Below are positions 20,028 through 59,790 of a stretch of 64,000 nucleotides of DNA, one piece after another. Where the stretch lies: NCBI RefSeq assembly GCF_963082655.1, contig NC_081552.1:128931494-128995493 (forward strand). Reading direction: 5' to 3'. The notes below the pieces were generated by a model that saw only the letters and a list, made by a program, of their open reading frames with translations, was not told the origin of the DNA and made no database searches. The translations under genes were made by a program, and so were the position numbers. How positions within the stretch are numbered: the first letter of the stretch is position 1; every line of letters begins with the position of its first letter. This DNA comes from Stomoxys calcitrans. Taxonomy: Eukaryota; Arthropoda; Insecta; Diptera; Muscidae.

Positions 20028-21520
20028 ACAAGTAAAAGCGTGCTAAGTTCGGCCGGGCCGAATCTTATATACCCTCCACCATGGATCGCATATATCGAGT
20101 TCTTTTCCCGGCATCTCTTCTTAGGCAAAAAAAGGATTTAAGAAAAGATTTGCTCTGCTATTAGAGCGATATCAAGATATGGTCCGGTTTGGACCACAAT
20201 TAAATTATATGTTGGAGACCTGTGTAAAATGTCAGCCAATTCGAATAAGAATTGCGCCCTTTGTGGGCTCAAGAAGTTAAATAGAGAGGTCGATTTATAT
20301 GGGAGCTATATCAGGCTATAAACCGATTCAGACCATAATAAACACGTATGTTAAAGGTCATGAGAGAATCCGTCGTACAAAATTTCAGGCAAATCGGATA
20401 ATAATTGCGACCTCTAGAGGCTCAAGAAGTCAAGATCCCAGATCGGTTTATATGGCAGCTATATCAGGTTATGAACCGATTTGAACCATATTTGGCACAG
20501 TTGTTGGATATCATAACAAAATACTACGTGCCAAAATTCATTTAAATTGGATAAGAATTGCGCCCTCTAGAGGCTCAAGAAGTCAAGACCCAAGATCGGT
20601 TTATATGACAGCTATATCAGGTTATGGACCGATTTGAACCATACTTAGCACAGTTGTTGGTTGTCATAACAAAACACGTCGTGCAAAATTTCATCCCAAT
20701 CGGATAAGAATTGCGCACTCTAGAGGCTCAAGAAGTCAAGACCCAAGATCGGTTTATATGGCAGCTATATCAGGTTATGGACCGATTTGAACCATACTTA
20801 GCACAGTTGTTGGATGTCATAACAAAACACGTCGTGCAAAATTTCATCCCAATCGGATAAGAATTGCGCACTCTAGAGGCTCACGAAGTCAAGACCCAAG
20901 ATCGGTTTATATGGCAGCTGTATCAGGTTATGGACCGATTTGAACCATACTTGGCACAGTTGTTGGATGTCATAACAAAACACGTCTTGCAAAATTTCAT
21001 TCCAATCGGATAAGAATTGCGCACTCTAGAGGCTCAAGAAGTCAAGACCCAAGATCGGTTTATATGGCAGCTATATCAGGTTATGGACCGATTTGAACCA
21101 TACTTAGCACAGTTGTTGGATGTCATAACAAAACATGTCGTGCAAAATTTCATTCCAATCGGATAAGAATTGCGCACTCTAGAGGCTCAAGAAGTCAAGA
21201 CCCAAGATCGGTTTATATGGCAGCTATATCAAAACATGGACCGATATGGCCCATTTACAATACCAACCGACCTACACTAATAAGAAGTATTTGTGCAAAA
21301 TTTCAAGCGCCTAGCTTTACTCCTTCGGAAGTTAGCGTGCTTTCGACAGACAGACGGACGGACGGACGGACAGACGGACGGACATGGCTAGATCGACATA
21401 AAATGTCGCGACGATCAAGAATATATATACTTTATGGGGTCTCAGACGAATATTTTGAGTAGTTACAAACAGAATGACGAAATTAGTATACCCCCCATCT
21501 TATGGTGGAGGGTATAAAAA
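20028..21520 (+). mobile_element. Family A element, copy A3
   Basis: Complete at both ends, with a head unit and seven unit motifs in total. The central units are nearly identical to each other at 153-bp spacing: 'GCGCACTCTAGAGG' falls at 20713 and again at 20866. The GGAC tract is at 21352-21385. It is inserted cleanly into family C, between 'TTGAGGTATTA' and 'CAAACTAAATTTTGC'. Confidence 0.85.
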
Positions 21521-36394: not shown

Positions 36395-37457
36395 TCTATG
36401 TGGTACGCCCCCCAAACCCAAAAAACCCCTCAACAGGACTCTTTCACCGCTTTGTGCAATATGGGTATCAAATGAAAGATATTTAAAAGTAGAGTAAGAA
36501 TCTGATGTAAACATGTATTCTTAGGTGCTTGAGGCCCCAATCCCATAACGCCCCAGCAGGGCTTATTTATGGGTATCAAATAAAAGGTCTTTGGAAGTTG
36601 ACTACGAATCTGGTTTACATATTTGGTATAGAGTCTGGGACCGACCCACCCTCTAAATACCTTTCAATAAGACGTGTAGTTCGAGCGGGTTTTGGTTTTG
36701 AATGTAGATAACCAATACAAAAATAATTAATTAGTGTGAATCTGAAAGAGACCCGTAATCCTGAATATCTTTACTACCACCTTCAAAATGATTGACATTA
36801 AAGGTCTCAAACTAAATCGTGCTCTAGCACGATGCTGATATTATTTCAGGGTCCGCCCCCTTAACTCCTTTTAAACCGGCCATGTTTGTCAACTATGGCA
36901 ATAAATGGTAGGTATTTAATAGTAGAAAACGAAATTGGCACCCAATTTTGAGGCCAAGTGTTTGCGGATCGTCTCACCCCATTTGAGAGTAGAGAACGAT
37001 GCTGATATTTTTTCAAGACATACTTTTTGTGGATTATGGTATAAAGGGACCCAAATCTGTTATCTGTTTTATGGTCAAGAGTTTCAGGGACGTCTCACCT
37101 CATAAATCCCCCCTAAATCATACATATATACCGACTATGGCAATATATAGCTTAAATTGGTTTGGTTTGGGGAGTAGAATATGTATCAGATATCCACTAT
37201 CGGGGCAAAGGATTTGGCAACTCTACTCCACCACCAATACCAAGGTCCAAGGTCCATCTGACATTGTCAGATGTCAGATGGGGCGATTTAAGCGAAGTTT
37301 AATTTGTTTCTACTATCTCAAAAACAGAAAATTAATATAACAATAAATCTACACTCTAATTATAAGATTATTATCTTGTTGTGTAGACAATAAATCTATA
37401 AATAAATAAATAAAATAAAAATTTGGTATCCTTATTTAGGGTGGGATATCTAGGGGG
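36395..37457 (-). repeat. Family C repeat, copy C5, 3' part (minus strand)
   Basis: Diverged minus-strand family C units: 'ATGGGTATCAAATGAAAGAT' and similar text recur. It continues past the Transib insertion at 40521. The stretch 37000-37440 is poorly conserved and includes an AT-rich (AAATA)n run near 37385-37415. Confidence 0.55.
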
Positions 37458-37462
37458 CGGCG
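37458..37462. other. Transib target site duplication, left
   Basis: CGGCG immediately precedes the element and is repeated at 40516-40520. Transib elements are known to duplicate 5-bp GC-rich sites of the CGNCG type. Confidence 0.92.
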
Positions 37463-37490
37463 CACAGTGTTGCCCCGGTGGACAAAAATG
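37463..37490 (+). repeat. Transib left terminal signal, 12-RSS-like
   Basis: The heptamer CACAGTG (37463-37469) is identical to the V(D)J recombination signal heptamer. A 12-bp spacer (37470-37481, TTGCCCCGGTGG) follows, then ACAAAAATG (37482-37490). That nonamer-like block matches the RSS nonamer ACAAAAACC at its first seven positions. Confidence 0.85.
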
Positions 37491-38007
37491 CAAAAATCGG
37501 AAATGAAAATTTTTATGAAATCTTTTACTAATCTTTTAGAAAACACTTCAAATATGAAGAATTTAAAAAAAAATAATTATATTTGAAGTTCCTCGTCATC
37601 TAATGGGCGTTTTCGTACGAAGGTTTTTTAACAAATGGATGATGCATATTTTTTCCCAAAAATTAAAATTTCTGTTTATGTAAACAAAATTGATTTTTTA
37701 TTTATTGGGGTACCAAAATAGAATAAGATCTTAAAGAGGACATAATTGACAGCACATTTGTCAACGTAAGGTGTCACTGACATGAACATATGGTTAGTAC
37801 CGTTACTTTTAAATAAGAGGCAAAAATAAAGCAATTACTGTCAAAAGTGAAATTTTCAGCAGAGTGGATCTAAAAAAGTCCAACTGGGACCACGCTAACT
37901 CTTTTTCAGCGTTCTTCAGTGAAGTGTCCTGAATCAAAAAGGCTAAATTTCAGCTGCACCAACTTGCACCATTTGCGTATATAGTGTTATATTATATTAA
38001 AGCTAAA

Positions 38008-39906
38008 ATGAAAGTGCGTGAGTTGTATAATATTTGGTTGTCTGTTAAAGCAGTAAACCCAACGCATGTAAACAAAGTAATAATAAACAAAATCGAAAGC
38101 AATGGCAACAAGTTACTGAATGAACAAGACAAAGAAAAAATAAAATCAACTTTAAAGAAGTTCAACAAAAAATGGGTTAAATGTTCCCGTATGAAACTAA
38201 GGTTTGAATCATCCAATAATATTTGGCTGGATACCGACATGCGTCTGGGCGTAAATGATTTCTTTGAGGTAATTAAAACATTTTTTTTAAAGCTTATCAC
38301 CACTATGACCAAAAATATTTAAAATTAGGAACCAAGTACTAGTGGCAGTAGAGGAAGACCACGAAAGTCCTTTGAAGAATCGTGCAATAGAACAAAGAGA
38401 AGGCGAGTGGATGAGTTAGTTACATCGAATTCATCAGAATTAATTAAAAAAGCTGCGGAAAAGCTAACTATCCTGAGTAATCAAAGCACCATATCAGTTA
38501 AAGAGGCTTTGGGCTTGTACGTTGATATGGATTTGTCCTATAGAACATACAATATGATGAGAAATTTAGTAAATTCATTTCATAAGGATTGTTTCCCATC
38601 GTATAAGGCTTTATTCAAATCTAAACAAGAACTTATACCACATGATATCGAGGTAACAGAGAGCTCTGCAGAAATTCCATTGCAGTCTCTATTAAATCAA
38701 ACCGCAAAAAGCTTGATGGACTCCCATAACTTGTGCCCCAAAAAAGATATTACATTAGAATGTAAATGGGGGTTCGATGGAAGTTCGAACCACAGCGTAT
38801 ATAAACAAAAATTTTCGAACCCAAGAATTAATGATGAGTTTATATTTGTGGCATCTCTGGTACCATTGCGATTTTTTGATCCTAAAACCTCCACAACATT
38901 ATGGGAAAACGATCGCCATTCCTCACCCAGATATTGTCGACCAATAAAATTCATGTTTATGAAAGAAAACCCTGATTTGGTGAGAGATGTGGAACGGAAT
39001 ATTTCACTTCAAATCGAAAGCTTGAACAGCTTTCACCATGAAGAAAAAAACGTAAATGTTAGTTTTTCTATGAAGCTAACTATGATAGATGGCGCTGTCT
39101 TAAATGTTCTTACGAATAATAAAAGCAGTTCAAATTGTTGTATTTGTGGGGCGAAGCCTACCGAAATGAACTCAACTGCAGTGTCTGAACGCGATGTAAA
39201 TGAAGAGCATTATAAATATGGACTCTCGACGCTGCATGCTAGAATTAAGTTTTTTGAATGTATACTCCATATTGCGTATAAGTTAAAAGTGAGAAAATGG
39301 AGGGTTTCAAAAGAACAGGAGAAACAAGTAGTTTCTGAAACTAAGTCACAGATTCAAAAAAAAATTAAAGAACAATTAGGATTAATAGTAGATAAAGTTA
39401 AAAATGGTTATGGCACAACAAACGATGGAAATAGCGCCAGAACATTTTTCTCAAATATTGAAATTGCATCGAAAATAACTGGAGTTGATAACAATTTAAT
39501 ACGAAACTTTTCAATAATACTGCGAACTATTTCAAGTGGATCAAAAATAAATATAGAAAATTTCGATACGCTCTTGAAGGAAACAAGGGATTTGTATTTA
39601 AGCAAGTATGCTTGGTATTTCATGCCAGCTACGGTGCACAAAGTACTTGTCCATGGAATAGGATTCATAAAATATTTCTCAATTCCTATTGGAATTTTGT
39701 CAGAGGAGGCAATGGAGTCATGCCATAAAATAATCAGAAAGGCAAGACTAGAGCATACACGAAAGTGCGACAGAGAAAAAACTAATAAAGATTTGTTTGT
39801 ATATATGATTTTACACTCAGAGCCATCCATTAGTGTTTTAAGTCAAAAGAATAGAAATATCTCCGAAAACTTAAATGATATTCAATATTATATTGAGCAA
39901 GATTGA
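38008..39906 (+). CDS. Transib transposase, two exons (RAG1-core homologue)
   Basis: The predicted protein has 612 residues. Exon 1 is 38008-38268 (87 codons from the first ATG) and exon 2 is 38329-39906; removing the 60-bp intron keeps the frame. The N-terminal domain ends in 'KKWVKCSRMKLRFESSNN'. A basic segment follows (GRPRKSFEESCNRTKRRR), probably for DNA binding or nuclear entry. Catalytic residues by motif are Asp237 (WGFDGSSNHS), Asp341 (LTMIDGAV) and Glu550 (EEAMESCHKIIRKAR), matching RAG1 D600, D708 and E962. Cys357/Cys360 (CCIC) and His524/His529 (HKVLVH) match the RAG1 zinc-binding set. The enzyme should nick and hairpin DNA at the CACAGTG ends and move the element by cut and paste. 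The reading has no premature stop. Activity is inferred; the motifs are seen directly. Confidence 0.92.
38269..38328 (+). other. Transib intron, 60 bp, phase 0
   Basis: The 5' site is GAG|GTAATT at 38268/38269 and the 3' site is AAATTAG|GAA at 38328/38329. The length is typical of short fly introns. If the intron is retained, the frame stops inside it at about 38320-38322, giving a short protein with the N-terminal domain only. The frame downstream has no ATG at its apparent start (the codon at 38407 is GTG, Val), so splicing is needed for the full enzyme. Confidence 0.85.
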
Positions 39907-39979
39907 AAACAATACAAAGAAATGTTGATACCTTTTTTGAAGTGTTATTATGTTTTATGTTGTTTTATAAGAAATATGA

Positions 39980-40002
39980 AATAAAAAATTAAATAAAATA
40001 AA
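39980..40002 (+). promoter_or_regulatory. Polyadenylation signals of the Transib gene
   Basis: Three AATAAA hexamers lie at 39980-39985, 39992-39997 and 39997-40002, about 75-95 bp after the stop codon and just before the tandem repeat. They would place the transcript end upstream of or within the first repeat unit. Confidence 0.65.
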
Positions 40003-40020
40003 TTTGAAAAAAATTTCGCT

Positions 40021-40420
40021 TTACATTGGTTCAAGAAGTCAAATCGGGAGATCGGATTATATGGGAGCTATATCAGGACATAGTCCGATTTGAACCATAC
40101 TTACCATGGATGTTGAAAGTCATAACAGTAGCCTTTGTGCAAAATTTCAGCGAAATCGGATAACAACTGCGACCTCCAGGAGCTCAAGAAGTCAAATCGG
40201 GAGATCGGTTTATATGGGAGCTATATCAGGATATAGCCCGATTTGGTCCATACTTACCATGGATGTTGAAAGTCATAACAGTAGCCTTTGTGCAAAATTT
40301 CAGCGAAATCGGATAACAACTGCGACCTCCAGGAGCTCAAGAAGTCAAATCGGGAGATCGGTTTATATGGGAGCTATATCAGGATATAGCCCGATTTGGT
40401 CCATACTTAATGTTTTTCTT
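40021..40420 (+). repeat. 153-bp tandem repeat inside the Transib element
   Basis: About 2.5 units. 'GACCTCCAGGAGCTCAAGAA' falls at 40171 and again at 40324, a period of 153 bp, and the second and third units are nearly identical. Each unit has 'CGGTTTATATGGGAGCTATA', 'CCCGATTTGG' and 'CAAAATTTCAGCGAAATCGG'. These are the same landmarks, in the same order and at the same period, as the inner units of family A elements. The 116-codon open frame across it is a by-product of the period being 51 codons. Confidence 0.9.
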
Positions 40421-40476
40421 AATTTAAGTCAAATATACATGTATTTAAAATTTTAGAGCTCTATCTTAACTCTAAC

Positions 40477-40515
40477 TAATTTTGTCCAACGAATGTATGA
40501 AGAGGCAACACTGTG
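40477..40515 (-). repeat. Transib right terminal signal, 23-RSS-like
   Basis: Read inward on the minus strand: heptamer CACAGTG (40515-40509), a 23-bp spacer (40508-40486), then ACAAAATTA (40485-40477), which matches the RSS nonamer at its first six positions. Both ends share 'TTGCC' after the heptamer and 'TGGACAAAA' at the nonamer. Only the spacer length differs, by 11 bp. Confidence 0.85.
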
Positions 40516-40520
40516 CGGCG
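40516..40520. other. Transib target site duplication, right
   Basis: CGGCG directly follows the right-hand heptamer complement CACTGTG and is identical to 37458-37462. Confidence 0.92.
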
Positions 40521-40852
40521 CCACCTTCAAAACCCGCCAAATGGAAATATAAACCAAAATGACAATATGGGGATCAAATGAAAGGTATCTGAGATTAGAT
40601 CACGAATCAGATATATGGGCATCCACCTCAGCCCTAAAAATACATCCATACCGGATATATTTACCGACCACAGCAATATAAGGCTCAAATAAAAGGTATT
40701 TAGGAGTAGAGCATGAAGAATCTGAAAGACCGTACTAGCACCCCAAAACAGGAATTATTTCCTACCCGTGTCAGTATAGGGCTCAGATAAAATAAGAGAG
40801 TGAAAGAATGCGCAGCGGAGCGAGCCCTGTCCAGCTAGCTTTAGAATATAAA
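40521..40852 (-). repeat. Family C repeat, copy C5, 5' part (minus strand)
   Basis: It resumes the family C text interrupted by the Transib ('CCACCTTCAAAACCCGCCAA'). The minus-strand start of the family is at 40800-40850, where the complement reads CTAGCTGGACAGGGCTCGCT then CCGCTGCGC. Confidence 0.7.
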
Positions 40853-40919: not shown

Positions 40920-42640
40920 ACAAGTAAAAGCGTGCTAAGTTCGGCCGGGCCGAATCTTATATACCCTCCACCATGGAGCGCAGTTGTCGAGTTCTTTTCC
41001 CGACATCTCTTCTTAGGCAAAAAGTGATATAAGAAAAGATTTGCTCTGCTATTGGTGCGATATAAAGATATGATCCGGTTTAGACCACAATTAAATTATA
41101 TGTTGGAGACCTGTGTAGAATGTCAGCCAATTCGAGTAAGAATTGCGCCCTTTGGGGGCTCAAAAAGTAAAATAGAGAGATCGATTTATATGGGAGCTGT
41201 ATCGGGCTATAAACAGATTTAGACCATAACAAAAACGTATGTTGATGGTCAAGAGAGGATCCATCGTACAAAATTTCAGGCAAATCGGATAATAATTGCG
41301 ACTTCTAGAGGCTCAAGAAGTCAAGATCCCAGATCGGTTTATATGGCAGCTATATCAGGTTATGAACCGATTTAAACCTTATTTGACACAGTGGTTGAAA
41401 GAAAAAATAAAAAATAAAAAACGTCATGCAAAATTTCAGCCAAATCAGGTAGGAATTGCGCCCTCTAGAAGCTCAAGAAGTCAAGTCCCCAGATCTGTTT
41501 ATATGACAGCTATATCAGTTTATGAGCCGATTTGAACCATTTTTGGCACACTTGTTGGATATCATAAAAAAAACATGTCGTGCAAAATTTCATTCCAATC
41601 TGATAAGAATTGCGCACTTTAGAGGCTTAAGAAGTCAAGACCCAAGATCGGTTTATATGGCAGCTATATCAGGTTATAGACCGATTAGGACCATACTTGG
41701 CACAGTTGTTAAATATCATAACAAAACAAGTCGTGCAAAATTTCATTATAATCGGGTAAGAATTGCGCACTCTAGAGGCTTAAGAAGTCAAGACCCAAGA
41801 TCGGTTTAAATGGCAGCTATATCAGGTTATGGACCGATTAGGACCAAACTTGGCACAGTTGTTGAATATCATAAGAAAACACGTCGTGCAAAATTTCATG
41901 CCAATCGGATAAGAATTGCGCACTTTAGAGGTTCAAGAATTCAAGACCCAAGATCGGTTTATATGGCAGCTATATCAGATTATGGACCGATTTGAACCAT
42001 ATTTAGCACAGTTGTTGGATATCATAACAGAACACGTCGTGCCAAAATTCATTCAAATCGGATAAGAATTGGGCTCTCTAGAGGCTCAAGAAGTCAAGAC
42101 CCAAGATCGGTTTATATGGCAGCTATATCAGATTATGGACCGATTTGAACCATACTTAGCACAGTTGTTGGACATCATAACAAAACACGTCGTGCAAAAT
42201 TTCGTGCCAATCGGATAAGAATTGGGCACTTTAGAGGCTCAAGAAGTCAAGACCCAAGATCGGTTTATATGGCAGCTATATCAAAACATGGACCGATATG
42301 GCCCATTTACAATACCAACCGACCTACACCAATAAGAAGTATTTGTGCAAAATTTCAAGCGGCTAGCTTTACTCCTTCGGAAGTTAGCGTGCTTTCGACA
42401 GACAGACGGACGGACGGACGGACGGACGGACGGACGGACGGACGGACGGACGGACGGACGGACGGACGGACGGACGGACGGACGGACGGACAGACGGACG
42501 GACATGGCTAGATCGACATAAAATTTCACGACGATCAAGAATATATATACTTTATGGGGTCTCAGACGAATATTTCGAGTAGTTACAAACAGAATGACGA
42601 AATTAGTATACCCCCCATCTTATGGTGGAGGGTATAAAAA
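40920..42640 (+). mobile_element. Family A element, copy A6
   Basis: Complete ends and eight unit motifs, equal to the longest interior seen here (copy A7 also has eight). Unit-to-unit divergence is higher than in A3 or A10. It contains a greatly expanded GGAC tract. Confidence 0.85.
42400..42505 (+). repeat. (GGAC)n microsatellite, about 105 bp
   Basis: Almost uninterrupted GGAC tetranucleotides follow 'CTTTCGACAGACAGAC'. One GACA interruption occurs near the right end. The same site in other A copies holds only about 10-40 bp, so this is a local expansion of the element's built-in tract. Confidence 0.95.
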
Positions 42641-58304: not shown

Positions 58305-59790
58305 AACAAGTAAAAGCGTGCTAAGTTCGGCCGGGCCGAATCTTATATACCCTCCACCATGGATCGCATTTGTGGACTTCTTTTGCCGGCATCTCTTCTT
58401 AGGCAAAAAAGGATATAAGAAAAGAGTTGCTCTGCTATTAAAACGATATCAAGGTATGGTCCGGTTCGGACCATAATAAACACGTTTATTGATGGTCACG
58501 AGAGGATCCGTTGTACAAAATTTCAGGCATATCGGACAATAATTGCGACCTCTAGGGGTCAAGAAGTCAAGATCCCAGATCGGTTTATATGGCAGCTATA
58601 TCAGGTTATGAACCGATTTGAACCATACTTGGCACAGTTGTTGGATATCATAACAAAACACGTCGTGCAAAATTTCATTCAAATCGGATAAGAATTGTGC
58701 CCTCTAGAGGCTCAAGAAGTCAAGACCCAAGATCGGTTTATATGGCAGCTATATCAGGTTATGAACCGATTTGAACCATACTTGGCACAGTTGTTGGATA
58801 TAATAACAAAATACGTCGTGCAAAATTTCATTCAAATCGGATAAGAATTGTGCCCTCTAGAGGCTCAAGAAGTCAAGACCCAAGATCGGTTTATATGGCA
58901 GCTATATCAGGTTATGGACCGATTTGAACCATACTTGGCACAGTTGTTGGATATAATAACAAAATACGTCGTGCAAAATTTCATTTCAATCGGATAAGAA
59001 TTGCGCACTCTAGAGGCTCAAGAAGTCAAGACCCAAGATCGGTTTATATGGCAGCTATATCAGGTTATGAACCGATTTGAACCATACTTGGCACAGTTGT
59101 TGGATATAATAACAAAATACGTCGTGCAAAATTTCTTTTCAATCGGATAAGAATTGCGCCCTCTAGAGGCTCAAGAAGTCAAGACCCAAGATCGGCTTAT
59201 ATGGCTGCTATATCAGGTTATGAACCGATTTGAACCATACTTGGCACAGTTGTTGGATATCATAACAAAACACGTCGTGCAAAATTTCATTCTGATCGGA
59301 TAAGAATTGCGCACTCTAGAGGCTCAAGAAGTCAAGACCCAAGATCGGTTTATATGGCAGCTATATTAGGTTATGAACCGATTTGAACCATACTTGGCAC
59401 AGTTGTTGGATATCGTAACAAAACACATCGTGCAAAATTTCATTCCAATCGGATAAGAATTGCGCACTCTAGAGGCTCAAGAAGTCAAGACCCAAGATCG
59501 GTTTATATGGCAGCTATATCAAAACATGGACCGATATCGCCCGTTTACAATACCAACCGACCTACACTAATAAGAAGTATTTGTGCAAAATTTCAAGCGG
59601 CTAGCTTTACTCCTTCGGAAGTTAGCGTGCTTTCGACAGACAGACGGTCGGACATGGCTAGATCGACATAAAATGTCACGACGATCAAGAATATATATAC
59701 TTTATGGGGTCTCAGACGAATATTTCGAGTAGTTACAAACAGAATGACGAAATTAGTATACCCCCCATCTTATGGTGGAGGGTATAAAAA
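58305..59790 (+). mobile_element. Family A element, copy A10
   Basis: Complete ends with seven unit motifs. Part of the head unit is deleted: 'GGTTCGGACC' joins directly to 'ATAATAAACACG'. Inner units are close to identical at 153 bp. The GGAC tract is almost absent ('CAGACAGACGGTCGGACATG'). Confidence 0.85.

Follow-up and report, generated by a model that had tools for sequence, protein, structure and literature searches.

Is the 12/23 rule, the pairing of a 12-end with a 23-end, older than RAG2 and the vertebrates? A Transib transposon in a 64-kb stretch of the Stomoxys calcitrans genome (the window, meaning the whole stretch analysed) bears on this question. HzTransib, for which structures have been solved, cannot settle the age of the rule, because its ends are described as symmetric in the text of PMC8289069 available to us. 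The window element occupies positions 37463-40515 (3053 bp) and is complete, with exact target-site duplications, tens of near-identical copies and a transposase of the HzTransib/RAG1 fold that has no interruption in most of them. We consider it very probable that this is an intact, recently mobilised cut-and-paste Transib whose ends are an inherited 12/23 pair, and which would move by the mechanism outlined below.

Two homologous ends with spacers of 12 and 23 bp

Read inward, the left end consists of CACAGTG, a 12-bp spacer and the nonamer-like ACAAAAATG, and the right end of CACAGTG, a 23-bp spacer and ACAAAATTA. A preliminary description of the locus had claimed this arrangement, and we recovered it in full, with the heptamer at 37463-37469 and 40515-40509 and the spacers TTGCCCCGGTGG and TTGCCTCTTCATACATTCGTTGG. 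The seven (left) and six (right) leading nonamer matches counted there were also correct, although ACAAAATTA, and with it the right-hand value, is private to the window copy among the 33 complete copies described below; the usual right block, ACAAAAATA in the other 32, has seven leading matches. The ends had further been described as homologous and differing by 11 bp. This was borne out, and a second block common to both, CGKTGGACAAAA (12 nt, one mismatch), was equalled in 5 of 20,000 shuffles. The motif CACAGTG N{10,25} ACAAAA has two matches in the window, both at the tips of the element, against an expectation of 0.03. The case is stronger than first claimed, since the element also has a perfect 5-bp duplication, CGGCG, on its two sides, on which the preliminary description is silent. 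CAC-heptamer terminal inverted repeats (TIRs) with a 5-bp GC-rich duplication place the element in the Transib superfamily, and heptamer-12-nonamer and heptamer-23-nonamer units on opposite ends place it among the 12/23 Transibs.

A young family with fixed spacers

We searched the S. calcitrans assembly with the left 98 bases of the element and scored 40 of 240 candidates, of which 36 matched at 99-100% and four at 89-90%. The 12/23 ends and exact 5-bp duplications were present in 33 of the 36 close copies, the window copy included. Two of the exceptions (L032, L049) mismatch at the outermost right bases, and in the third (L041) only the first 1712 bases align within the stretch. The first 60 bases were identical in 32 left and 32 right ends of the 33 complete copies; the deviant left end has an additional A about 40 bases in, and the deviant right end is that of the window copy. 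Left duplications favoured CGNCG, with C in 30, G in 34, C in 34 and G in 34 of the 36 copies at the fixed positions.

Divergence from the majority sequence amounted to 29 substitutions in 85,486 sites (35 copies, L041 excluded). At least 29 of the 36 copies carry an uninterrupted 612-amino-acid transposase frame; the remaining seven are of another length or are missing the 3' end. The family has been mobilised very recently, with 12/23 ends.

Spacers in diverged relatives and across the genome

Among relatives at 85-90% identity to the queries, all six left ends (L067-L070, L104, L105) had a 12-bp spacer. All seven diverged right ends (L067, L071, two in L072, L073-L075; 84-86% where scored) had one of 23 bp, and the two in L072 look locally duplicated. 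We also scanned the genome with a pattern that leaves the gap free, GTGTTGCC N{1,30} TGGACAAAA, which gave 208 matches, and a single one when reversed. Among the 100 of these 208 matches that were listed, spacers were 12 bp in 44, 23 bp in 45 and of another length (11, 13, 15, 20, 22, 24, 26, 29 or 31 bp) in 11. Subtracting the 28 ends of 14 young copies leaves 72 listed matches, with 30 spacers of 12, 31 of 23 and 11 other; some of these old matches are the same loci as the diverged ends above, and part of the 11 off-length ones may be due to chance.

The listed matches included 16 inward-facing pairs within 8 kb, every one of them 12/23; 14 belong to young copies. The other two are old and short, L106 at 1143 bp and L107 at 762 bp, with 75-78% likeness across their longer aligned stretches. 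L108 holds one more old pair, again 12/23. For four diverged right ends the pattern found no left partner within 4-kb stretches, and no related DNA outside the fly's own genome was confirmed in the viral_contigs or genome_contigs collections.

Spacers hold at 12 and 23 bp in young and old relatives. The preliminary description had proposed that copies be collected and their ends aligned, and had named variable spacers as an outcome that would refute it; no such variation appeared in the copies, and lengths of 12 and 23 recurred in young, diverged and most scanned ends. Its doubt, that the spacing might be a coincidence of one copy, is answered by the close copies. The copy search and the genome-wide scan, together with the diverged ends and a second family (B, below), speak against coincidence, and we reject it as almost certainly wrong.

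An intact transposase and a candidate mechanism

The spliced transposase of the window copy is a stop-free protein of 612 amino acids, in agreement with the earlier impression of an apparently intact RAG1-like enzyme. Its fold matches those of HzTransib and RAG1, with about 37% and 16% identity, respectively, over the aligned fold. Alignment equates D237, D341 and E550 with D126, D225 and E436 of HzTransib (numbering as in the available text of PMC6941560). Together with D237 and D341, the zinc ligands C357, C360, H524 and H529 are invariant across 50 aligned rows, and E550 is kept in at least 90%. Homology to a characterised Transib, with DDE residues and zinc ligands placed as in the rest of the family, identifies the protein as a Transib transposase. 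A GRPR motif lies at residues 96-99, and GRP is kept in 75 of the 88 homologues long enough to include that region. In a small number of alignments (root-mean-square deviation (rmsd) 5.5-11.3), the GRPR region and the beginning of the RAG1 core are collinear; most rows begin further on. In Pfam, the exon-2 open reading frame (ORF) was unmatched and exon 1 gave only two weak sub-threshold matches. The NCBI model LOC131997013, which represents a near-identical copy on another contig, departs from the 612-residue frame after residue 513.

No RAG2-like gene was seen among the other ORFs of the element (each at most 140 amino acids), although no RAG2 profile search was made. The remainder of the 3-kb element consists of short flanks and a tandem repeat, with no room for a second gene. 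In its ORFs it is a single-gene Transib, and the convergent RAG1L and RAG2L genes of RAGL/ProtoRAG elements were not found there.

By analogy with HzTransib and RAG1, a transposase dimer would bind both ends through the heptamer, nick them and then form hairpins on the flanks, and the excised element would be inserted into a CGNCG-like target. Less certainly, the GRPR-bearing N-terminal region, which appears to be placed as the nonamer-binding domain (NBD) of RAG1 is, may contact the ACAAAA block at a 12-end and a 23-end, one of each. Since 11 bp is close to one helical turn, the difference in spacing might hold this block on the same DNA face, and might also render the ends unlike, so that one left end would be paired with one right end.

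Two further Transib families in the same genome

A protein search of the genome (83 of 1208 candidates scored) recovered two further Transib groups at about 37-42% identity, here families B and C, with family A being that of the window element. Family B (NCBI LOC131994136, about 38% identity; locus L076:1029-4265) has the ends CACATTG GTTCAAGAGTGG CCGAAATTC and CACATTG GTTCAAGTTCATTGAACGAGCGG CTAAAAATA, which again differ by 11 bp. The 12/23 register is our choice, 13/24 being possible, and nonamer likeness is weak, at 5 of 9 positions at each end. Both ends and exact duplications were present in 11 of 12 copies checked (2/2 and 9/10). Separately, all 40 scored left ends of this family (46 candidates) were identical across 100 bases. 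Family C (L078:447-5087, L079:520-5090) has TIRs of about 1.44 kb, for which reason its two ends read alike, each with CACAGTG, 11 or 12 bp and an A-run, with exact duplications in both copies examined. All three families have near-identical copies in the samples examined.

A tree of 42 proteins placed A and B on separate well-supported branches, B grouping with a Helicoverpa armigera protein, and C formed a long branch of unsure placement. Given this tree and the symmetry of C, asymmetry either dates far back and disappeared in some lineages, or arose repeatedly. Since C is symmetric and nevertheless produces exact duplications, asymmetry is not obligatory for every Transib.

The behaviour of family C suggests that the 12/23 layout could be passively inherited, the enzyme reading, at either end, the heptamer with the few bases behind it and depending little on the ACAAAA block or on how far away it lies. 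The near-identity of the young copies fits this explanation. So does the available text of PMC8289069, in which most Transibs are symmetric, HzTransib being an example with little nonamer similarity; the weak block there is suggestive. Against it, the spacers of 12 and 23 are kept in copies with no more than about 75-80% likeness in their inner parts, and family B shows the same 11-bp difference on another branch of the tree. We regard passive inheritance as a serious possibility, though short of probable.

The longer spacer lies downstream of the transposase gene in A and B alike, as might be expected if asymmetry were functional in the absence of a pairing rule. The additional 11 bp of the right end would then carry a host-protein site or determine the order in which the ends are cleaved, and pairing of like ends would occur as well. 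Other transposons are known to have unequal ends that play such parts. None of the 16 facing pairs among the listed matches is like-ended, however, and we think this explanation unlikely.

Does the asymmetry reflect a pairing rule?

A stronger form of our preferred reading, that of an intact Transib with an inherited 12/23 pair, is that a RAG2-less insect transposase obeys a proto-12/23 rule, pairing a 12-end with a 23-end. Selection would then have preserved the fixed 11-bp difference in two or more Transib lineages of a single fly, and its absence from symmetric Transibs would be a loss. If so, the rule would predate RAG2 and vertebrates. We put this forward tentatively, as somewhat improbable on present evidence.

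Several observations weigh against an inherited 12/23 pair that is read as such by the enzyme. The young copies resemble a single lineage and the old ends share descent, so that constancy is by itself no proof of selection. Of the 72 old listed matches, 11 are spaced otherwise, six of them by one base, and the scan pattern fixes TTGCC and TGG within the spacer, leaving ends that have lost them uncounted. The flanks of L106 and L107 are without clear duplication. The NBD-like region is covered only by the high-rmsd alignments, and we infer both the pairing preference and the nonamer contact. The symmetry of family C, with its exact duplications in the same genome, and the symmetric ends and slight nonamer similarity of HzTransib count on the same side.

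What makes the locus valuable is a 12/23 family that is young and largely intact and that shares its genome with a second asymmetric family and a symmetric one, and the window family makes the enforcement of unlike-end pairing testable. Because one fly genome holds A and B (unequal by 11 bp, 12/23-type) and C (symmetric), all with near-identical copies, like and unlike end pairs could be compared with their own enzymes.

Relation to known systems

The window element is a young, intact member of an already published kind, and its novelty is limited accordingly. The available text of PMC8355894, following Kapitonov and Jurka (2005), names Transib5 of Drosophila melanogaster and Transib2, N1, N2 and N3 of Anopheles gambiae as 12/23 Transibs. 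By their description, these elements of other hosts resemble the window element in having nonamer-like blocks about 12 and 23 bp from the heptamer; for the window element, near-identical copies and an open transposase frame are reported here. HzTransib (Helicoverpa zea; PDB 6pqn, 6pqx and others) differs in its TIRs, symmetric in the PMC8289069 text seen. ProtoRAG of amphioxus, as far as its description was available, shares a RAG1-like enzyme and asymmetric TIRs; its 27/31 spacers and RAG2-like gene were not seen in the window element. Asymmetric ends are preferred by ProtoRAG, according to the same portion of PMC8289069. In the literature searched, part of it available as excerpts, we found no end-pairing test of a 12/23 Transib, and the literature collection searched held no publication covering both Transib and Stomoxys.

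With vertebrate RAG1/RAG2 and its 12/23 recombination signal sequences (RSSs), the element has in common the heptamer CACAGTG, seven of nine positions of the left nonamer, the spacer lengths and the RAG1 core fold. Heptamer identity and spacer match could suggest that its lineage, or a similar one, was the direct source of vertebrate RSSs, and the accessible part of PMC8355894 proposes, in general terms, that V(D)J recombination was seeded by a 12/23 Transib. The element is nonetheless a transposon rather than a domesticated recombinase, with no RAG2 partner among its ORFs (RAG2 profiles were not searched), and RAG1 is far less similar to its transposase than HzTransib is. In the sections of PMC9435367 available, Subgroup I Transibs, all with asymmetric TIRs, are nearer RAG1L than Subgroup II, which has both kinds. 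The likeness could also be shared ancestry or convergence, and direct descent from such a lineage seems to us highly improbable. The preliminary description had presented the element as a candidate for how the 12/23 rule arose; a 12/23 Transib with a RAG1-like enzyme stands, whereas the idea itself, though reasonable, is not new, being already present in the PMC8355894 text.

Feature coordinates and surrounding sequence

Coordinates of the Transib element and its parts (window positions)
Feature	Position	Strand	Remark
Left target-site duplication CGGCG	37458..37462	.	Identical to 40516-40520
Left heptamer CACAGTG	37463..37469	+	
Left 12-bp spacer TTGCCCCGGTGG	37470..37481	+	Unchanged in 33/33 complete copies
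Left nonamer-like ACAAAAATG	37482..37490	+	
Transposase exon 1	38008..38268	+	GT..AG joint matches the NCBI model LOC131997013, of a near-identical copy, over 513 residues
60-bp intron	38269..38328	+	GT..AG in 29 copies with equal coding length
Transposase exon 2	38329..39906	+	Spliced protein 612 amino acids in all
Internal 153-bp tandem repeat	40031..40409	+	2.5 copies here; number differs among copies
Right nonamer-like ACAAAATTA	40477..40485	-	ACAAAAATA in remaining 32 complete copies
Right 23-bp spacer TTGCCTCTTCATACATTCGTTGG	40486..40508	-	Unchanged in 33/33 complete copies
Right heptamer CACAGTG	40509..40515	-	
Right target-site duplication CGGCG	40516..40520	.	Perfect 5-bp match to the left one

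The element occurs in main length classes of about 2900, 3053 and 3206 bp, with which the number of 153-bp repeats agrees, and the repeat resembles many 153-bp arrays of the window, such as those at 20222-21245 and 58509-59521. By eye, the sequence around the Transib (37040-37462 and 40521-40720) resembles a dispersed repeat, and at 42397-42503 of the window there is a (GACG)n tract with about 27 units.
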